Assembly (NCBI GenBank): GCA_021300395.1
Contig: JAJTEO010000039.1
Location: forward strand, 1-33,506
Direction: 5' to 3'
DNA: 33,506 bases
Origin: Fluviicola sp.
Lineage (GTDB): Bacteria > Bacteroidota > Bacteroidia > Flavobacteriales_D > Crocinitomicaceae
Both the position numbers and the translations under genes were made by a program. A model generated the notes under the pieces. It did no database searches. It saw nothing but the letters and a program-made list of their open reading frames with translations, and had not been told where the DNA came from. Shown here piece after piece: positions 105 to 21,688 of the stretch (position 1 is its first letter; the number at the start of each line of letters is the position of its first letter).

Positions 105-1286
105 TTAAAGTACAACAAATGTTACTCTTCTTGATTTTGCTAATTTTAATTCTTCTTCATCAGATTCGCTTGCATCTGGATTAGGTGCAGTTGACCCCAT
201 TGGTTTAGCAATTAATGCTGCTTCAGCAACACCTTTAGAAACCAAATATTTAATTACAGAATTGATACGTTTATTTGACATATCTGCATAAAGTGGTTTT
301 TCAGCTCCTACTTTATCCTCTAATTCATTTGCATTACCACGAACTTCAATTTTCATATCTGGATTTGCTTTCAATTGTTCAGCAATTAAGTTCAAAGCTT
401 CTTCTCCGATTGGTGTCAATTTGTATTTTCCAAAAGCAAAATAGATTTGTTCAATCTCTACTTTTTGTTTTGGTGTCATTTTATCATTGATGCTGATTTG
501 TTTTTGATAAATCATTGATGAATACTCCGATTCAGTAGCTGCTTTTGCACAATCACATGCTTGATCTTCAGCAACCAACATAACAGAAACATCATCGATA
601 TAATAGTAAGCAGCGATAACAGGAGTGATTTTCATCTCTGTTTTTTTATTCTTTTCACCAATTGTTTCTTCATTTGAAGAAAAATTACCGATCGTAATAA
701 ACTTCTCACCACCTGTAGCTACAAACTCAGCACAAACAGTTTCCCAATTATACATTGCATTGAATACTTTGTTATCTGTATGCAAAACAGAAGCTTTTTC
801 AATAATTGCTGTTTTTGAATCTGTTGTTACTGGTTTAGAAGACAATACAGCTCCTAATTGATTCGATGCATATTTTGACGCCTCAGCTAACGAAACATTA
901 AATTTCACGCAATATTTCAATCCTTTTTTTAATGGAGTTGAAAGTTTGGTCATTATGTAAGAACGAGGAGCTTTATCTCCAAAAGAATAAGCATAAATAC
1001 CTGCATAATTTGTACCTTCTTTAGCTTCTTCTTTACCATAATTGTTAAAAGGAACATTAATTTCGGCCGGTGCAGTTGGAGAAAATAAATCAGCTCTTAC
1101 TCCAGTTGGAGAAACCCAACCTAAAGCACTTTCAATTGAACCTAATTTTTTAACTTTTCCATCTGTTTGCTCAAAACTTCCATTTTCAACTAAATTTTCT
1201 GTTTGTTGAGCAATTGATTGATTCGAAATGAAACCTAGCCCTAAAAAAGCAAGACCTATTCCGTACGTTTTAAAATTTAATTTCAT
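105..1286 (-). CDS. OmpA-family outer-membrane/peptidoglycan-anchoring protein
   Basis: This is a 393-residue exported protein. Residues 1-26 form a signal peptide ending SIAQ. Residues about 30-240 start with NLVENGSFEQ and look like a beta-sandwich, carbohydrate-binding-like domain, a common N-terminal partner in Bacteroidota. The C-terminal 115 residues are an OmpA C-terminal domain: the strand IYFAFGKYKLTPIG, then IEVRGNAN in place of the usual VxGHTD, and the closing KSRRVTFVVL. In this family the domain binds peptidoglycan non-covalently, so the protein probably tethers the outer membrane to the cell wall. The ATG lies inside the last codons of hemE (17-nt overlap), which suggests translational coupling. 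The usual GHTD motif is altered, so peptidoglycan binding is inferred from the fold only. Confidence 0.8.
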   Translation of the reverse strand: MKLNFKTYGIGLAFLGLGFISNQSIAQQTENLVENGSFEQTDGKVKKLGSIESALGWVSPTGVRADLFSPTAPAEINVPFNNYGKEEAKEGTNYAGIYAYSFGDKAPRSYIMTKLSTPLKKGLKYCVKFNVSLAEASKYASNQLGAVLSSKPVTTDSKTAIIEKASVLHTDNKVFNAMYNWETVCAEFVATGGEKFITIGNFSSNEETIGEKNKKTEMKITPVIAAYYYIDDVSVMLVAEDQACDCAKAATESEYSSMIYQKQISINDKMTPKQKVEIEQIYFAFGKYKLTPIGEEALNLIAEQLKANPDMKIEVRGNANELEDKVGAEKPLYADMSNKRINSVIKYLVSKGVAEAALIAKPMGSTAPNPDASESDEEELKLAKSRRVTFVVL

Positions 1287-2156
1287 AGTCTTTTACAGTT
1301 TGAATAAATGTTTTCACCTTTTCTGGATCTATGTCTGGATATACTCCATGACCTAAATTCACAATATGACGTCTACTTTTAAACGACTTTAACTCGCTAC
1401 TGCATTTACTGAAGTAATCGCCCCTTTCGAAAACAAGGTAACCGGAACTTCATTTACTGCAGAAACAATTTTATCCAAGTATTTCAATCCAAATTCAGCA
1501 TATTGTTCTGTTCCCAAAATACCCGCCCATGAGTCGAATACTTGTAACATGTGAGCACCTGCTTTCACCTGTGCTTTCAAGTACTGAATTGTAACATCTG
1601 TAATACGACTAAGCAACTCGTGTGCCAAAGTTGGATTAGTATATAATAATTTTCTTGATTCTGAGAATGTTTTTGAACCTCGACCTTCCACCATGTAACA
1701 GAAAATAGTCCAAGGTGCTCCTGCGAAACCAATTAATGGAACTCTTCCGTTTAATTCTTTGTTTGTGATACGAATCGCTTCTAACACATAACCTAAACGA
1801 TCTTCTATATCAAAATTCGTTTCAGCGTATTTCAAACCTTCTTCAGAACGGATTGTTTTCTCAAACCATGGACCGCTTTTTTCCAACATTTGATATTCCA
1901 ATCCCATTGCTTCCGGAACTACTAAAATATCTGAAAAAATAATTGCTGCATCCACTCCTAAAATATCCACTGGCTGAATCGTAACTTCAGCTGCTCTTTC
2001 TGGTGTTTCTACCAATTCTTTAAATCCCGATAAAGATGCTCTAACATCTCTATATTCAGGTAAAATACGGCCTGCTTGACGCATTAACCAAACTGGATAA
2101 CGCTCAATAGCTTCTCCTCTAGCCGCTCTTAATATTAAATCGTTCTGTAATTTCAT
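1270..2156 (-). pseudogene. hemE: Uroporphyrinogen decarboxylase, broken by an out-of-frame internal deletion
   Basis: HemE removes four carboxyl groups from uroporphyrinogen III to give coproporphyrinogen III in haem synthesis. The first 240 or so codons are intact: signature [10 protein letters not shown] near residue 21, the catalytic aspartate in IIFSDILVV (residue 76), and [16 protein letters not shown]. The frame runs from FSKGA (near 1421) into a stop at 1389. The true C-terminus, with RRHIVNLGHGVYPD and ending DYEIKF, continues in another frame to a stop at 1270. Between the two parts about 45-50 codons usual for HemE are absent, including the GLDW and QGNLDP motifs. The 887-nt span is not a multiple of three. 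One out-of-frame deletion of roughly 140-150 nt explains this. I chose ATG 2156 because the earlier ATG at 2165 lies inside the promoter's -7 box. As written the gene cannot make active enzyme. Confidence 0.88.
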
Positions 2157-3018: not shown

Positions 3019-3783
3019 ATGAACTATTTATACTCATTTATAATTGCTGGAATTTTATTTTCAAGTTGTACTTCAACTGAAAAAGAAGAAATCGAAACTC
3101 CTCAAGAGGAGAAAGAAATGTCTTTAGAAGAATTAGCTAAAAGACATGTTGAAAGCGATTTACAAATTCCTTCTACTGAAAAATATTCAATGAGAATTTA
3201 TAAAGAAAATTTAGATGGTGATGCTAAAGAGGATGCAATCATCACTGTAAATCGATTAGAAAATGCATTTAAAACGGCTGAAAAATCAGGCAAATCTGCA
3301 AAATTAGCAGAAATTGGTTTTATGGGAAATCACAATTATTTCTTTTACTATGATGGTGCTTTAGGTAAAATAACTCCGAATATTCCAGTTATGTCATCGC
3401 CATATACCGAGTTAAAAATCAATTTTATCAATTTAATGTCTGATGCATACAAAGATGTTACGATGGATTTTAGAATTTTGAATGCTTCATATAAAGACTT
3501 TATCACAATAAAAAATCATAACCCTAAAGTGATTTTTGAATGGAATGAATATGAAAACCTTGGAAAAAACAATGCTACAGCTGTTTATTTTGACATTGTA
3601 GATAGAAATGTAGGTTTATCAAAAGACATCGTACTTTACAAAGCAAATCTAGAGAACAATGTAGTCGGTATGAATGATGTTTATCACTTCACTCCTATTA
3701 TCAAAAAGACAAACGAAAAATTATATTCTTGGTTCTACAGTCCAGAACAAGGAAAATATTGTACGACTGATAAGAAGAAATAA
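3019..3783 (+). CDS. Putative lipoprotein of unknown function
   Basis: This 254-residue protein opens with a short hydrophobic signal and a lipobox, LFSSC, with the acylated cysteine at residue 17. An acidic low-complexity tether (EKEEIETPQEEKEMSLEE) follows, as expected for a lipoprotein held away from the membrane. The rest is a soluble domain. It contains NLDGDAKEDAIITVN, reminiscent of the Asp-rich calcium-binding loops found in FG-GAP/VCBS-type repeats, and later GNHNYFFYYDGALGKI. I do not recognise the family. It stands alone with its own promoter, divergent from ung and convergent with purC. A periplasmic or surface location is inferred from the signal. Confidence 0.75.
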   Translation: MNYLYSFIIAGILFSSCTSTEKEEIETPQEEKEMSLEELAKRHVESDLQIPSTEKYSMRIYKENLDGDAKEDAIITVNRLENAFKTAEKSGKSAKLAEIGFMGNHNYFFYYDGALGKITPNIPVMSSPYTELKINFINLMSDAYKDVTMDFRILNASYKDFITIKNHNPKVIFEWNEYENLGKNNATAVYFDIVDRNVGLSKDIVLYKANLENNVVGMNDVYHFTPIIKKTNEKLYSWFYSPEQGKYCTTDKKK

Positions 3784-3827
3784 AAAAAGGTGTCTTCGTC
3801 CGAAGTTTCGGACTCCGCTCAGACACC
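3782..3827 (-). terminator. REP-like palindrome acting as terminator of purC
   Basis: The outer stem pairs 3789-3795 (GGTGTCT) with 3821-3827, and the inner stem pairs GTCCGAA (3798-3804) with TTCGGAC (3807-3813). Read on the minus strand, the hairpin is followed by seven T, an intrinsic terminator for purC. The minus-strand core CTGAGCGGAGTCCGAA resembles a palindromic repeat I recall as common in Bacteroidota intergenic DNA. A second copy lies at 9860-9883. Confidence 0.75.
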
Positions 3828-3868
3828 AATATTTTATTAAGCTTTTAGCTTTAATAGTTTTTTATAAA

Positions 3869-7144: not shown

Positions 7145-7173
7145 TTAGATAGATACTAATAAAAAATGAACCA

Positions 7174-7262
7174 TCCCGATTAAAATACGGGACAAGTTAT
7201 AAGGGATTATAAGTTCATATAAGTTAGATCACACCTTATATTCCTTACAATCACTTATATGG
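7174..7262. repeat. Imperfect inverted repeat between convergent genes
   Basis: This 3' intergenic stretch has a small hairpin (TCCCG 7174-7178 with CGGGA 7188-7192). A larger inverted repeat follows: CATATAAGT (7216-7224) pairs perfectly with 7253-7261, and 7199-7213 matches the reverse complement of 7244-7258 at 13 of 15 positions. The word TATAAG recurs in the left arm. It lies between the ABM gene and pspC, which converge, and may act as a two-way transcription stop, but no long T-run supports an intrinsic terminator. Confidence 0.5.
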
Positions 7263-7272
7263 TTTAAAAAAC

Positions 7273-8826
7273 TCAATCCCAATGATAATACTCCCCATCC
7301 AAATCCAACTCTCCTTCTTCTTCGTAAAAAGGATCTTCTACATTTTCATCTGAATCGGTTGTTCCTAATGAAATAGTATGATAAGGGAATTTTACTGTTT
7401 TACCTTGAGGTATTTCGATTACAATTGTTACTTCTTGATCTCTCAATTTATCTTTGATTGGAAAATCATAATCCGTATGAACAAACATTTTATTGCCATT
7501 TAACACAACTGCATGATTAATTCTTTTGGCTTTATAAACGGCATTGTTATGCGTATAACCTCTTGCACTCAATTCCTGATAAACATGATACAATGTATCA
7601 GCTGAAGTTTTATATATAAAATTGATTTCAGATTCTTTTACTCTTCCTTTTTTGATCGCTACAAACCCTTCGAAACTTCCATTTTTCACTACAAAATCTT
7701 CTCCAAAACTATTTTTGACAACTTGTGGTTCTACGATCAATTCATTAGCATATACATCTGCTACTTTTCGTTGAACTTCACCTTTGATAGTCATTTCTCT
7801 TCCTACTTTCACACCAATCACGGAACAAACAATCACCCCGACTAATCCAATGAAGAACAATGTACTTAACACGTATTTCGTCCACTTGCTTTTTAATCTA
7901 AAAATTAATTTAGAACCTAAAAGGAACAAGAATAATACGACAGAGAAACCAACAGTAAAAGCACAAAGTCGCATCCAAAACACATCAATATCATTCTCAA
8001 TTACCAGAGTACTCAAATAAGACAGAGACATAAATCCTTGATCCATTTGAGCAGGAATAAAGGCCATATCAAATACACCAAAAACAATTAATGAAACTAA
8101 TATAGATCCACCAAATACAACCATTCCAATACCGACAACAATGGAAATAACCCTTCCTATTGAAGAAATTCTATCGGTTAATTCATCATTATTTCTCAAT
8201 TTATTAGCAAAAGAATTAGTTTCATTACCGAATCTATTTGCTGCTGCTTCCACTTCTTCTTTCACAGAATCAACCGTAATTGGTTTACCCTGCATTCTCA
8301 AACGGTCAATAGATGAATTTACTTTTGGGGTTACAATCCACAGAATAATATATAAAGGAATACTAAAGCCACCAAAGAAAAACACAACTAAAAACAATAT
8401 TCGAATTACTATAACATCTACTGAAAAATAACTTGCTAAACCACTACAAACACCTGCAATTTTTCCATTCTCAACATCTCTAAACAGACGTTTGCCTTTT
8501 TTAACGTCATTCAAATTGTCATTCGAATGCTGTGTTTTTTCTTCCTGAAATGATTCCGAAGTTTCATCAACAAATTCCTCTGGCTGCCCTAATGTCTCTA
8601 ATATTTTTTCAATATCTTCTAGTTCTACAACTTGTTTATTAGAAGTTAAAGTCAATCCACAAAGCTCTGCTATACGGTATTCGATATCTTCAATTATCTC
8701 TTTACTTCCTTGCTCATTTTTCAAACTTATCTCTAAGCGTTTCATATATGATTGAAGTAATTCATAAGCATCTTCTTCAATTAAGAAATTTGTGCCTTTT
8801 ATATTTACTGAAACTGTTTTCTTCAT
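7273..8826 (-). CDS. PspC-domain membrane protein
   Basis: This 517-residue inner-membrane protein has a soluble helical N-terminal region (1-100). A PspC domain follows at 112-168: KRLFRDVENGKIAGVCSGLA, then a hydrophobic segment ending ILWIVTPK. After it come three further membrane segments (about 222-252, 288-306 and 317-340). The long C-terminal region (345-517) is likely soluble and ends in an acidic tail. PspC domains occur in envelope-stress systems. In Bacteroidota such large PspC proteins are usually encoded directly after a PadR regulator, as here, with a 7-nt gap. It is probably under control of that regulator and may sense membrane state. Its molecular activity is unknown. Confidence 0.85.
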   Translation of the reverse strand: MKKTVSVNIKGTNFLIEEDAYELLQSYMKRLEISLKNEQGSKEIIEDIEYRIAELCGLTLTSNKQVVELEDIEKILETLGQPEEFVDETSESFQEEKTQHSNDNLNDVKKGKRLFRDVENGKIAGVCSGLASYFSVDVIVIRILFLVVFFFGGFSIPLYIILWIVTPKVNSSIDRLRMQGKPITVDSVKEEVEAAANRFGNETNSFANKLRNNDELTDRISSIGRVISIVVGIGMVVFGGSILVSLIVFGVFDMAFIPAQMDQGFMSLSYLSTLVIENDIDVFWMRLCAFTVGFSVVLFLFLLGSKLIFRLKSKWTKYVLSTLFFIGLVGVIVCSVIGVKVGREMTIKGEVQRKVADVYANELIVEPQVVKNSFGEDFVVKNGSFEGFVAIKKGRVKESEINFIYKTSADTLYHVYQELSARGYTHNNAVYKAKRINHAVVLNGNKMFVHTDYDFPIKDKLRDQEVTIVIEIPQGKTVKFPYHTISLGTTDSDENVEDPFYEEEGELDLDGEYYHWD

Positions 8827-8833
8827 GATTTCC

Positions 8834-9157
8834 TTATTTAATAATGGTTGTAACTGCTGAATTTAATTCTGACCAAGTTTTCTTTAAACCTTCTAAAAAC
8901 TTTTTTCCCTCTTCGGTCATTGTAAAGTACTTTCTTGGTGGTCCTGAATTCGACTCTTCCCAACGGTAAGCTAGCAACTCCAAGTTTTTCAATCGTGTCA
9001 ACAAAGGATACAATGTTCCCTCCACTACAATTAATTTAGCTTCTTTTAATGTTTCAAGTATTTCGGAAGGATATGCTTCTTTCTTTTCTAATATGGAAAG
9101 AATACAAAATTCTAAAATTCCTTTTCGCATTTGAGCTTGTGTATTTTCTAAACTCAT
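8834..9157 (-). CDS. PadR-family transcriptional regulator
   Basis: This 107-residue winged-helix protein belongs to the short PadR subfamily. It shows the opening MRKGILEFCILSIL, the recognition-helix region YPSEILETLKEAKLIVVEGTLYPLLTRL, and the wing and C-terminal dimerisation segment SGPPRKYFTMTEEGKKFLEGL. This is the standard PadR layout without a long C-terminal arm. PadR proteins usually repress their own operon and release it on ligand or stress. Here the gene precedes pspC by 7 nt, with a good promoter and an inverted repeat upstream, so it most likely controls padR-pspC. The ligand cannot be told from the sequence. Confidence 0.92.
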   Translation of the reverse strand: MSLENTQAQMRKGILEFCILSILEKKEAYPSEILETLKEAKLIVVEGTLYPLLTRLKNLELLAYRWEESNSGPPRKYFTMTEEGKKFLEGLKKTWSELNSAVTTIIK

Positions 9158-9174
9158 ATCTCAAATAGTTTATA

Positions 9175-9206
9175 CAAAGATATATGTTTTATTTAGTATT
9201 ATGCAA
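9175..9206 (-). promoter_or_regulatory. Promoter of padR-pspC
   Basis: On the minus strand TTG (9204-9206), a 21-nt spacer and a perfect TATCTTTG (9175-9182) form a Bacteroidota promoter. The start codon at 9157 is 17 nt downstream. Confidence 0.7.
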
Positions 9207-9209
9207 TAC
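9196..9209. promoter_or_regulatory. Candidate PadR operator
   Basis: GTATT-ATGC-AATAC is a perfect 5-bp inverted repeat that covers the -33 element of the padR promoter. Its position suits repressor binding that blocks RNA polymerase. It is inferred from symmetry and position only. Confidence 0.4.
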
Positions 9210-9277
9210 ATAGTACTATTTATTTTTAAAATATTTTTTATTAAAACAAATAAACCTTTGAAAAATAAGTAATTGAC

Positions 9278-9310
9278 AAAAAAAAGGCCGGCAATTAAAT
9301 TGTCGGCCTT
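9278..9310 (-). terminator. Intrinsic terminator after the rluA-type gene
   Basis: Arms 9284-9296 and 9298-9310 (AAGGCCGGCAATT and AATTGTCGGCCTT) pair with one G-T wobble. On the minus strand the stem is followed by eight T (A-run 9278-9285). It ends transcription from the truncated pseudouridine synthase gene. Confidence 0.88.
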
Positions 9311-9329
9311 AACTATAATTTAGTATTAT

Positions 9330-9860
9330 TTAATTTCTTTCTTCAAAAAACTTCCAAATTGGTTCATTTGGAACTGGTGCTGTTATCTTAATTAACTCCT
9401 TAGTTGTAGGGTGATTTATTTCCAAATAGCGTGCGTGTAAACTAATTGATCCATCAGGATTTGATCGTTTTGCTCCGTATTTAACATCACCTTTTATAAT
9501 ACAACCAATTGTTGATAATTGAGAACGAATTTGATGATGACGTCCAGTATGTAACTCAACTTCCAATAAAAAATATTTATCGGATTTATCAATCAATTTA
9601 TACTCCAAAGAAGCTCTTTTCGATCCAGGTGTTTCTTCTAAACTAGCGTATGATTTATTTTGTTTTTCATTCTTTTTTAAGAAATGAACCAAAGTACCCG
9701 TTTTCTCTTTCGGTTCTTTTTCTACAATTGCCCAATATGTTTTTTTTGTATTTCGCTCTCTAAACTGTTCATTTAAACGAGTTAACCCTTTAGAAGTCCT
9801 AGCAAAAACAAGTGCTCCACTTGTTGGTCGATCTAAACGATGAACGACACCTAAAAACAC
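9330..9860 (-). pseudogene. RluA-family pseudouridine synthase, 5'-truncated
   Basis: RluA-family enzymes isomerise uridine to pseudouridine in rRNA or tRNA. The frame encodes VVHRLDRPTSGALVFA with the catalytic aspartate, then KKTYWAIVE, VELHTGRHHQIRSQL, GDVKYGA and LHARYLE, all typical. The protein, however, begins at VFLGVVHRLD, so the catalytic aspartate is residue 10. Normal members have about 50 more residues before this, including an NKPAG-type motif. The only available start is a GTG at 9860, and codons upstream read through non-homologous sequence (CGLSDSEPS) to a stop. The breakpoint coincides with a REP-like palindrome. The truncated product would lack part of the core sheet and is probably inactive. 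Downstream of panB with its own terminator, it was probably the last gene of the panB transcript. Confidence 0.82.
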
Positions 9861-15918: not shown

Positions 15919-15968
15919 TTCAAAATTTGAAATCTGCCAATTTGTAATTTGTAATCTGCAATCTACAA
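15919..15968. repeat. Stuttering repeat between convergent genes
   Basis: The 50 nt between the kinase gene and the PorE-like gene consist of a palindrome, TTCAAAATTTGAA (15919-15931), followed by repeated words built on TTTGTAAT and AATCTGC. It is similar in style to the stretches near 7199, 9915 and 21703. No clear terminator with a T-run is seen. Confidence 0.5.
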
Positions 15969-18227
15969 TTATATCTTCTCAATCAAGAAATCTGTACGTC
16001 TATTTTTCGCTCTATTTGCATCAGTCGTATTGTCTAATTTTGGCATTGTTTCACCGAAACCTTTAGATTTCAAACGACTTCCATCAATTCCACAAGCAAT
16101 TAAATACAATTTCACAGCATTCGCACGACCTTCGGATAACAATAAGTTTTGTTGATCATCACCTTGATCATCCGTATGTCCTTGAACCATTATTGTGACA
16201 TTCGGATTTTCAATTAAGAAACGTGAAAATTGTTTCAAAATAAATTTCGAACGATCATTTAAATCATAAGAATTGGTTGCAAATAAGATATCGTTAATCG
16301 TATAAGCCGCTCCTACTTTAATTTCTTTTACTAATAAATCATTGTTTCTGATAGACACATCTTTCGGACGTACTACTTCTGCGATATCTGTTTTCACTTC
16401 CGCTTCTTTCACTGGATTCTGCTTATTCTCTTTCGCATTCGTTTTAGCAGTTTCCTTTGCATTTCCTTTTGTTTCTTTATTTTCTTTACCATCTTTTTTA
16501 GCTTCCGTTTTAGGATTTACAGAGGCTGTTTCTGTTGGTTTTGAAACTGCAGGTTTTGTCGGAATCGTTTTTTCTAATTCTTCTTTTGTAATTAATTTTG
16601 AATCAAAGGCATAACCTTCTTTTTTCACTGTAACCATTACATCTTGTTTAGTCGTGTTTTTTACAACTGTAGCAAAATGTCCATCATTCCCATTCACTTT
16701 CACTTTAGTCACTTCGCCTGTTCCAGCATACGCCACTTCAATTTCAGCTCCTTTAATCGGATCTCCATTTTCATCTTTTAAATCACCTTTCAAGATAGTT
16801 ACACCTGTTGGTCGCGCTTCTTCATATAAGTCAAACGAATAAATATTCCAGTTTCCACCTTGACGTGAAGAATAGTAAGCCAATGTTCCATCAGTAGAAA
16901 CAAAAATCCCTAATTCATCATCAATTGAGTTAATTGGATAACCAATATTTTTAGGTTTTGACCAGTTGTTCGTATTCGCATCCCATCGACAATAGTAAAT
17001 ATCTAATCCACCAACACCTTTTAATTTTTCAGCATCATTTGATACAAAATACAAAGTTTCACTATCTTGATGTAAGAATGGACTTTTATCTTTTCCATTA
17101 CTATTGTATAAAAATGGTTTCACATTTCCCCACTTACCGTCAGCGCCTTTTGTTGCGATCATGATATCGTTATCTCTTGAAGATGGACGCATAACAGTAT
17201 AATACAATGTATTCCCATCAGGTGACAAAGTTGGTTGACCTTCCCATCCATTGGCTGTATTAATTTTATCTCCTAAACTTTCAAGTTTAGTCCAAGTATA
17301 ATCTTGCCATCCTGAACCAACTCTTTCATATTCTGTTCTATACAAATCACAATTCAAATAATTTTGACCACTTACCTGCGTTTGTTTACACGCACAAATA
17401 ATCATTTCCTTATTATCGACAGACATTGTAGCAGCTCCATAACTTGTAAATGTACCATCATTAAACGGTGCTTTCAATGGTTTTCCATTGTCAAAATATT
17501 CTGCAACATTTGGTCGTTGAGAAAATGTAAAATTCTCATGAACAACTACAGCCATTCCTGATTGTTTTTTATCTAAAGTATCCTTTCTCGTGAAAAACAT
17601 AATCTCGTTATCAGGAGAAATCATTGGGAAATATTCGTCATTTTTAGAACTCACATTTTTCACCATTCTTGGTTCAAATGGAACTTGATTTGCTTTCAAC
17701 TCAATTTCACTTTGTAAATCAGGAAGAATTTCATTGATATCGGCTAACTTTTTATCATAATCTAAAGGATAACGATCATTGTTGCTACTTTTAAATTTTT
17801 TAAATTCTCCAAACCACTTTACAGCATCTGGCATGTTTTTTTGAGTATAATTGATTACTCCTAGATAATAGAAACAATTTGCATGAAAATCTGCACAGTG
17901 ATTTAATGTTTCAATAAACATTTCTTTCGCTTTCTGAAAACTTTTATCTCCTTGCGCTGGATTAGGATTTTTCTCATAATATTTCGACCCGCTTTCAAAG
18001 GCATACATCGCATATTCATAATATGGTGTAGCATTATCAGGATTTTCTTCGATTGCTTTATTAAAGTTTGAAATAGCTGTCATTGCATCAGGAGCATTTT
18101 TTCCAGCATCAATAATTTTCATGATTTTTTTTGATGGTGGTAAACAAGCTTCATCCTCTGTTTGAGCGTATGATAAAGATGATGTTAAAATTGTGATTCC
18201 TAGAAATATGAAGTAAAGCTTAAACAT
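15969..18227 (-). CDS. PorE-like OmpA-family protein with TPR, PD40 propeller and CRD domains
   Basis: From ATG 18227 the protein has 752 residues and starts with a clear signal peptide ending SLSYAQ. In order it shows a TPR region (about 35-140, with NPDNATPYYEYAMYAFESG and FYYLGVINYTQKN), and a beta-propeller of PD40 repeats (about 200-470), with ISPDNEIMFFTR, LSPDGNTLYYTV and STDGTLAYYSS. A carboxypeptidase regulatory-like domain follows (about 475-550, GDLKDENGDPIKGAEIEV), then a 70-residue Lys/Glu/Thr-rich linker. The last part is an OmpA domain (623-752) with MVQGHTDDQGDDQQN and ANRAKNRRTDF. This is the domain order of PorE, a peptidoglycan-binding lipoprotein of the type IX secretion machinery. 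No lipobox is seen here, so it is PorE-like rather than proven PorE. An upstream ATG at 18278 would spoil the signal peptide. Confidence 0.8.
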   Translation of the reverse strand: MFKLYFIFLGITILTSSLSYAQTEDEACLPPSKKIMKIIDAGKNAPDAMTAISNFNKAIEENPDNATPYYEYAMYAFESGSKYYEKNPNPAQGDKSFQKAKEMFIETLNHCADFHANCFYYLGVINYTQKNMPDAVKWFGEFKKFKSSNNDRYPLDYDKKLADINEILPDLQSEIELKANQVPFEPRMVKNVSSKNDEYFPMISPDNEIMFFTRKDTLDKKQSGMAVVVHENFTFSQRPNVAEYFDNGKPLKAPFNDGTFTSYGAATMSVDNKEMIICACKQTQVSGQNYLNCDLYRTEYERVGSGWQDYTWTKLESLGDKINTANGWEGQPTLSPDGNTLYYTVMRPSSRDNDIMIATKGADGKWGNVKPFLYNSNGKDKSPFLHQDSETLYFVSNDAEKLKGVGGLDIYYCRWDANTNNWSKPKNIGYPINSIDDELGIFVSTDGTLAYYSSRQGGNWNIYSFDLYEEARPTGVTILKGDLKDENGDPIKGAEIEVAYAGTGEVTKVKVNGNDGHFATVVKNTTKQDVMVTVKKEGYAFDSKLITKEELEKTIPTKPAVSKPTETASVNPKTEAKKDGKENKETKGNAKETAKTNAKENKQNPVKEAEVKTDIAEVVRPKDVSIRNNDLLVKEIKVGAAYTINDILFATNSYDLNDRSKFILKQFSRFLIENPNVTIMVQGHTDDQGDDQQNLLLSEGRANAVKLYLIACGIDGSRLKSKGFGETMPKLDNTTDANRAKNRRTDFLIEKI

Positions 18228-18436: not shown

Positions 18437-18453
18437 TAAAAAAATCGTTGAAC

Positions 18454-21400
18454 ATGAAAAATGTATTTTCCTTATTAACATTCCTTTTTGTTGCTATTTC
18501 GGCTACAAACGCTCAGAACGCATCAACAAAAAAAGCAGAATTAGATGAATCAACTGTAGGTGGTTTAAATTTCAGATTAGTTGGTCCAGCTTTAACTTCT
18601 GGTCGAATTGCAGACTTAGCCGTTAATCAAAACACTTGGTATATTGCAGCTGCATCTGGAGGTGTATGGAAAACAACAAACCATGGAACGAGCTTCACTT
18701 CAATTTTTGATAATTACGGGTCGTTCTCAACTGCTTGTGTAGAATTAGCACCTTCAAATCCGAATACTGTTTGGGTTGGAACTGGTGAAAACAATAATCA
18801 AAGAGCTGTTTGTTATGGAGATGGAGTTTATAAATCGCTTGATGGTGGGAAGTCTTTCACAAACATGGGGTTAAAATTAAGTGAGCACATTGGTAATATT
18901 ATCATTCATCCAACTGATGAAAATACAGTTTGGGTTGCAGCTTACGGTCCAGTTTGGAGTAAAGGTGGTGAAAGAGGAGTTTACAAAACAACTGATGGAG
19001 GTAAAACATGGGAAAGAACGTTATTTATTTCAGATGAAACTGGTATTTCTGAAATAGCGATTGATCCTAAAAATCCAAATATTTTATATGCTGCAGCTCA
19101 CCAAAGAAGACGTCATGAATGGACATATATCGGTGGTGGACCAGAATCAGCATTATACAAATCAACTGACGGTGGTAAAACATGGAGAGAAATTTCATCC
19201 GGTTTACCAAAAGGTGAAATGGGAAGAATTGGAATCTCAGTTTCTCCAGCTGATGAAAATTACGTCTATGCAATAATTGAAGGCAAAAACGATAAAGGAG
19301 GATTTTTCAAATCAACAAACAAAGGTGAATCTTGGTCAAAAATGTCTGGTTTTTCAACGAGTGGAAATTATTACCAAGAAATCATCTGCGATAATACGAA
19401 TAAAGACAAAGTATTTATAATGGATACTTGGTTACATCACACAACAGATGGAGGGAAAACAATTGTCGGTACTGGTGAAGACAAAAAACACGTTGATAAT
19501 CACTGTATTTGGGTGAATCCAAATGATCCAAATCATTGGTTAGTTGGTTGTGATGGTGGATTATACGAAACGTTTAACCACGCTAAAGATTGGAAATATT
19601 ATGACAATCTACCAATCATTCAATTTTACAAAGTTGCAACGGATAACAAAGCTCCATTCTACAATATTTATGGAGGAACACAAGACAACAACTCAATGGG
19701 TGGACCATCAGCAACTATCAATAACGCTGGAATCTTAAACAGTGACTGGTATATTACAAATGGCGGAGATGGTTTTGAATCTGCTATCGACCCTACAGAT
19801 CCAACGATTGCTTATGCTGAATCTCAATATGGTGGATTGGTTCGTTACAATACAATTACTGGAGAAAAAATTTCAATTCAACCATTACCAGGTAAAAATG
19901 AAGCTGGTTACCGTTGGAATTGGGATGCACCGCTTTTAATCTCTCCACATGACCCAAAAACACTTTATTTTGCTGCGAACAAAGTTTTCAAAAGCACAAA
20001 CAAAGGCGATGATTGGCAAACAATTTCTTCAGATTTAACGCAACAAATAGATCGTAATAAACTGAAAGTCATGGGGCAAGTTTGGTCTATGGAATCAGTA
20101 ATGAAAAATGCTTCTACGACTATTTACGGAAATATCATTGCATTAGATGAATCACCTAAAAAGAAAGGTTTGTTATACACTGGAACAGATGATGGATGTA
20201 TCCAAGTTTCAGAAAACGATGGTTCAAATTGGACAAAATACACAACGTTTACAGGCGTTCCACAGAACACAAGAGTCAACATGATTTGTGCTTCATTACA
20301 CAATGAAAATGTAGCTTTTGCTGTATTCAATAACCACCGTTCAGGTGACTTTAAACCATATATTTTCAAAACAAGTGATAAAGGAAAAACATGGACTTCA
20401 ATTGCTGGAAATCTTCCTGTAAGAGGTTCTGTTTATTGCGTAAGACAAGATTTTGTTGATCCAAATTTACTTTTTATTGGAACTGAATTTGGTAAAATGG
20501 ATTAAAATTGGTGGATTACCAACCATTGCAGTGTACGATTTAGACATTCAACAAAGAGAATGTGATTTAGTTGCCGCAACGTTTGGTAGAGGTTTTTATG
20601 TATTGGATAATTATGCACCTTTAAGAGATGTTAACACAACAATTCTTGATAAAAAAGCACATTTATTTCCTGTGAAAGATGCTTTATTATATGTTCCTTC
20701 TGCACCACTTGGTTTAACAGGAACAGGTTCACAAGGTGCTGATTTATGGGCAGCAGAAAACCCTGCTTTTGGTGCAACTTTCTCTTTATACATTAAAGAA
20801 ACAGAGAAAAGTTTAAAAGAAAAAAGACAAGAGACGGAGAAAAAATTAGAAAGCGAGAAAAAAGATGTATTCTACCCTACTTTTGAAGAATTGCGTAAAG
20901 AAGAAAATGAAGAAAAGGCTCAATTAATTTGGATAATCAAAGATAAATCGAACAAAGAAATTAAACGTTTGATTACGACTCCTTCTAAAGGGATTTCAAG
21001 AATTAACTGGAATTTAAGAACTGAAACAACTTCAGCGATTAAAATTTCTAAATCTGCTCCAGGTCGTTACGAAAGTGCAGATGATGGTTTTTTAATTAGC
21101 GAAGGCGAATACACTGTTGAAGTAATTCAATTAAAAAATGGAATCGGTGAAAAATTAATTGAACCGACAAAATTCAATGTAAAATCACTTTTCCCGTCAA
21201 TGACTACTCCTAAAATGAATGAAGACTTAACGAGCTTCCGTAAAGAAGTTTCAGAATTAAAAAGAAGCCTTGCAGGAAGTGAAAAGTTAATGAGTGAGAC
21301 AAATGAAAAATTAGAATTAATCAATTATGCATTAACAAATTATCCAAATGCTCCAATCAAATTAATTGAACAAACAAAAGCAATTAAGCATAATTTGGAG

Positions 21401-21688
21401 CAGTGTTCTATTTTACTTTATGGAGATAATTTAATCGCTCATTTAGAATTTGAAACTCCAACTAGTATCATGAATCGTTTTGGAACAGTTGAATATCAAT
21501 TATTCGAAACAACAACTTCAGTTACAGCAACACAACGCAAAAACATCGAGATAACAAAAGAAGAATATGCTGTTTTCCGTTCAAAATTAAATGAACAAAT
21601 CATCGCTTTAGAACAAATCGAAAAACAATTGCAAGACATTCAATTACCTTATTTAAAAGGCGCTGATCAAAATTGGAAAGAAGAGTAA
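18454..21688 (+). pseudogene. BNR/sortilin-repeat exported protein, frameshifted by a small deletion
   Basis: The product is a large secreted beta-propeller protein of the VPS10/sortilin and glycosyl-hydrolase BNR-repeat group, about 1,080 residues in all. A signal peptide ends ISATNAQ. Repeated BNR-type motifs follow, such as YKSLDGGKSFTN, YKTTDGGKTWER, YKSTDGGKTWRE and FKSTNKGESWSK. The first frame ends after LLFIGTEFG with a stop at 20503-20505. The second frame resumes at KWIKIGGLPTIAV, continues through ATFGRGFYVLDNYAPLR, and runs to 21688 with a helical C-terminal half. Homologues normally have about nine more residues at the join (a strand plus DGG). A deletion of roughly 25-29 nt, out of frame, therefore explains the break better than a single-base error. 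No clear type IX C-terminal sorting domain is seen. The catalytic role is unknown. Confidence 0.85.

Follow-up and report, generated by a model that had tools for sequence, protein, structure and literature searches.

A 151-nt hole in hemE of a Fluviicola draft genome is probably an assembly fault and not a loss of haem synthesis

The stretch of DNA analysed here (the window, 33,506 nt of Fluviicola sp., GenBank contig JAJTEO010000039.1) corresponds to contig 53 of a 2.52-Mb draft assembly, which has 173 contigs and is 83% complete and 3.9% contaminated. The nearest named relatives are mostly metagenome-assembled Flavobacteriales/Crocinitomicaceae, some of them filed under other names, and the draft itself is presumably metagenomic. 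The window carries hemE, the gene of uroporphyrinogen decarboxylase, as two pieces in different frames (Table 1). The URO-D domain (PF01208), which should be found at full length in a single frame, gave in profile searches a match in two parts, 2-250 and 315-346, with about 50 residues gone between profile positions 250 and 315. The C-terminal block, ...NLGHGVYPDIDPEK..., was read in a frame different from that of the 5' part, up to the TAA listed in Table 1.

Table 1. Broken genes and associated features in the window and on two further contigs of the same draft
Feature	Location	Strand	Observation
hemE 5' part (uroporphyrinogen decarboxylase)	window 1389-2156	minus	ATG at 2156, premature TAA at 1391-1389; PF01208 profile 2-250, E 2e-97
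hemE 3' remnant	window 1270-1393	minus	other frame; TAA at 1272-1270; PF01208 profile 315-346, E 2e-8
hemE junction	window 1393|1394		relatives have 151 further nt between these bases; no bases common to the breakpoints
ompA-like gene	window 105-1286		start overlapped by the hemE 3' end
rluD-like pseudouridine synthase gene	window 9330-9860 (region to 9875)		5' end absent
Vps10/sortilin-like gene	window 18448-21688		26-nt hole at 20493 splits the gene and breaks its frame
Adenylate kinase gene (adk)	L161 5178-5674	plus	out-of-frame internal hole
Uracil phosphoribosyltransferase gene (upp)	L161 about 8940-9510	minus	split in two frames
DUF2071 gene	L179 (contig C90) about 9019-9601	minus	frame switch

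Both the FSDIL and the GHG blocks, which we take to be important conserved blocks of HemE at its N-terminal and C-terminal ends, respectively, were kept in the window gene and are common to a solved enzyme; they are read here in different frames. The GLDW and QGNLDP blocks were missing: they fall inside the absent 151 nt and are present in the intact gene of a relative (locus L034), which aligns with solved HemE over nearly its whole length, as well as in the solved enzyme 3gw0. Compared with the family as a whole (solved structures 1uro, 3cyv, 2inf), the remnants in the window match the N-terminal three quarters and the C-terminus, and the gene differs in the roughly 50 missing residues and the broken frame.

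Base-by-base alignments with three genomes of the same genus (G010, G009 and G003; DNA identity 92.7-97.1% in the alignments flanking the hole) showed that exactly 151 nt were absent at the junction. The more distant G006 (75-76% identity) had 161 nt where the window has 10, the same net difference of 151 nt. Since 151 is not divisible by three, the frame changes across the hole. A preliminary description of this DNA had proposed just such an event, a single out-of-frame deletion that takes conserved motifs, and this is exactly what the window contains: the N-terminal frame does stop just after FSKGA with the C-terminal block in another frame, as both the reading frames and the URO-D matches demonstrated, and GLDW and QGNLDP do lie within the lost part. 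Its estimates of 140-150 nt for the deletion and of about 65 residues from FSKGA to NLGHG were close to the values of 151 nt and 70 residues found in relatives, whose hemE genes proved intact in the comparison that it had called for.

With no bases shared between the breakpoints, a repeat-mediated deletion of the hemE segment was rejected. The seventh base on the 3' side of the junction was changed (an N-to-K replacement in the old frame), a change seen in none of G010, G009 and G003; of the 80 loci of relatives, 66 were readable by the pattern used in the script, and one of them had K at this site. The length of 151 nt is also a common read length. We did not rely on this as a clue to an artefact, because the other holes have other sizes (26 nt in the Vps10-like gene, 166-181 nt net in the rluD-like gene).

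The broken frame is not the usual state of hemE. The gene was matched in 47 of 59 genomes, the present draft included, and the other 46 of 46 had frames of 341-389 aa; among the 80 hemE loci of relatives, 79 reached a stop codon at 343-349 aa and one was cut by a contig end. Intact near relatives, both in these 46 genomes and in the aligned G010, G009 and G003, are what is expected of a pseudogene made in assembly. We observed one TAA within the URO-D match of another genome, G151. Among the matches listed, several family drafts showed two-part or weak URO-D matches, and some of these may have odd hemE genes.

The surviving part of hemE is not decaying. Over the first 250 codons the dN/dS ratio was 0.023 against G009, 0.036 against G010 and 0.037 against G003, and the changes specific to the window were five synonymous and no nonsynonymous ones. 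By simple arithmetic, five synonymous changes would, without constraint, be accompanied by about 17 nonsynonymous ones, given the roughly 583 nonsynonymous sites and 167 synonymous ones. These codons are thus under strong purifying selection, and relaxed selection, for which hemE was the gene tested, was not found in its 5' part (dN/dS 0.023-0.037).

Two more genes of the window are damaged. The rluD-like gene has 12 nt at its 5' end compared to 178 nt in G010, 13 nt compared to 193 nt in G003 and 27 nt compared to 208 nt in G006, so that the net loss is 166-181 nt. The hole in the Vps10-like gene was measured against G010, G009 and G003, which do not have it; G006 is without that stretch of the gene, having 1 nt opposite 182 nt of the window. 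The rluD-like lesion adjoins a repeated intergenic element that appears palindromic by eye. Short intergenic repeats were also seen at 3780-3832, 7164-7242 and 15924-15986; they have many related copies in the genomes of relatives and likewise look palindromic by eye. At 7171-9325 the window has about 2.15 kb, with genes that we named by eye as PspC-like and PadR-like, compared to only 147 nt in G003.

Breaks of a similar kind were found elsewhere in the draft (G000). Contig C98 of the draft, taken as locus L161, had been chosen for its hemH gene and not for lesions. Its adk gene opens with MLNIVLFGP (identified by eye) in one frame and continues in another, whose alignment with solved adenylate kinases begins at their residue 36; about 25 residues are missing, the P-loop among them. 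On the same contig, one piece of upp matches positions 8-73 of a 209-position profile and the other aligns from position 134 of a 208-residue chain, with about 60 residues absent. In the DUF2071 gene, the start MKKSFLTAEWR (by eye) is in one frame, and a second frame takes over at position 70 of the 212-position profile, a loss of roughly 55-60 residues. The sizes of these three holes are estimates, made without the DNA of a close relative. None of the other 218 loci matched the adk and upp pieces. Bacteria need adenylate kinase to live, and it is difficult to see how a cell could survive with a hole through the P-loop of this enzyme, unless it has another adk copy.

Several such breaks therefore exist in the draft; a high density of them over the whole draft, however, was not supported by the genes placed outside the window, none of which was split (0/18 placed from G010 and 0/2 from G006). 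In the reverse test, genes of the draft, from the window and from other contigs, were placed on the DNA of relatives, and frame switches were seen in 0/41 for G010, 0/20 for G009, 0/23 for G003 and 1/26 for G006. This test registers a lesion only where the reference ORF is closed and the frame switches, and the lesions of the Vps10-like and rluD-like genes are not counted by it. The single switch in G006, which is also a draft, was in the ompA-like gene beside hemE (L153, 5973-7134). With this gene itself frame-broken in G006, which had served as a control, the draft comparators are not clean.

In a scan of codon usage, the candidates numbered six for the present draft (263 kb of coding sequence), three for G010 (337 kb) and nine for G006 (282 kb). 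The scan found the Vps10-like break and missed hemE, adk, upp and DUF2071, and is therefore insensitive. Among ORFs of 100-170 aa drawn at random from the present draft, one of 20 (44 eligible) matched a longer Pfam family as a fragment; none of 20 short ORFs drawn from G010 (27 eligible) was a clear fragment, with one weak partial match to DUF1569 left uncounted. The mean ORF length in sampled stretches was 336 aa in the present draft, 354 aa in G006 and 386 aa in G010, a weak indicator, as the value of G006 falls in between and the contigs differ in length.

The rest of the haem pathway, as far as we followed it, was in place. Both hemB and hemH, each named by NCBIfam, were present in the draft without internal stops, and so was a gene of a COX1-family oxidase subunit. 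The preliminary description had recommended a search of the rest of the genome for hemH, which was found intact, and for a second hemE, which the profile search of the contigs (the assembled 83% of the genome) did not reveal in the form of any further hemE/URO-D match. It had offered three consequences of the break. A second copy was thus not seen in the assembled 83%; haem scavenging is disfavoured by the intact hemB and hemH and by the strong purifying selection on the remaining hemE; and an assembly fault is favoured, since other housekeeping genes, adk included, are similarly broken in the same draft.

We put the probability at roughly 85% that the hole in hemE is an assembly fault and not a true loss of haem synthesis, the organism most likely having an ordinary, intact hemE. 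The breaks in adk, upp and the rluD-like gene, the fragmented state of the draft and the lack of relaxed selection in hemE all argue for it. During contig building, the two pieces of hemE would have been joined with the 151 nt between them omitted, and the frame would thereby have been broken. We infer that the join belongs to the sequence data and that the DNA of the cell does not have it; the responsible step may have been a wrong gap closure, a scaffold join, a merged read pair or a chimeric read in a region of low coverage. Errors in assembly have been documented to produce apparent pseudogenes (Cooley and Wright 2024, PMC11017572). In the parts of that paper that we draw on, the likeness lies in a conserved gene that is broken in one draft and intact in near relatives, with further broken genes beside it; the difference is that the lesions are described there generally as frameshifts and internal stops, whereas those of the present draft are holes, from 26 to roughly 180 nt long. 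Breakage of other conserved genes, essential ones included, is also expected of such a draft, and the rluD-like, Vps10-like, adk, upp and DUF2071 genes were all broken, adk counting as essential here unless a second copy exists. Some points stand against the assembly fault. Repeat collapse does not usually produce a join of this kind, with no bases in common, which would require a chimeric read or a step that closed a gap. A high density of breaks over the draft was not demonstrated, with 0/20 split among placed genes outside the window, and some other family drafts may have odd hemE genes as well.

A biological reading of the break is weak. Its main form, which we consider unlikely, is a true and very recent deletion of the 151 nt in the strain or in part of the population, with haem then obtained from neighbours. 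The clean junction, the N-to-K change at the seventh base of its 3' side and the single hemE in the assembled 83% would fit such an event, as would the existence of genomes of the same family with no match to hemE or hemB. It is opposed by the purifying selection on the first 250 codons of hemE, by the intact hemB, hemH and COX1-family genes, and by the similar breaks in adk, upp, the rluD-like and Vps10-like genes and DUF2071.

An established loss, with the organism a haem auxotroph and hemE decaying as a pseudogene, is very improbable. Kim et al. (2021) are said, in a later paper that cites them, to have described haem auxotrophy in freshwater bacteria. Haem auxotrophs are known in freshwater plankton, according to the portion of PMC12381374 that we used, and the window as given resembles them in having no functional hemE; unlike them, as far as that portion describes them, it has hemB and hemH intact in its draft and the rest of hemE not decaying. 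A haem auxotroph is expected to have lost several pathway genes, and the intact hemB and hemH speak against auxotrophy. Three family members at least 99% complete do match neither hemE nor hemB, but those relatives are without hemB too, and the present draft retains both hemB and hemH together with 250 conserved codons of hemE. Decay would also have left some of the approximately 17 nonsynonymous changes expected beside the five synonymous ones, and none was seen.

We give equally little credence to the idea that short deletions (26 to roughly 180 nt) are truly present within several housekeeping genes of the population. The variants might, for instance, live side by side with intact sister cells, which would make good the lost haem, nucleotide and other functions. 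Least credible of all is that the two overlapping hemE fragments cooperate or that a frameshift restores HemE: both fragments still match URO-D, but about 50 residues including GLDW and QGNLDP are in neither, and no reading of the DNA supplies them.

Within the family, URO-D was matched by profile search in 192 of 200 genomes. Neither hemE (PF01208) nor hemB (PF00490) was matched in G023 (100% complete), G029 (99%), G107 (99%, three contigs) and G187 (89%). The URO-D-negative genomes G101, G211, G091 and G123 did have a hemB match, and G013 had a weak URO-D match with hemB present. G023, G029 and G107 belong to three genera and are possible natural haem auxotrophs. Loss of at least the hemE and hemB steps would then occur naturally in the family, in a pattern that seems unlike the case in the window.

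The assembly fault as the preferred reading carries a caution: haem dependence should not be inferred from a single gene that is broken in a draft, as the same reasoning would give this organism a defective adenylate kinase. A true deletion would mean that haem synthesis was lost very recently and in one step, with the other tested genes of the pathway, hemB and hemH, still kept. The three nearly complete relatives without hemE and hemB matches are the better lead on haem dependence in the family.
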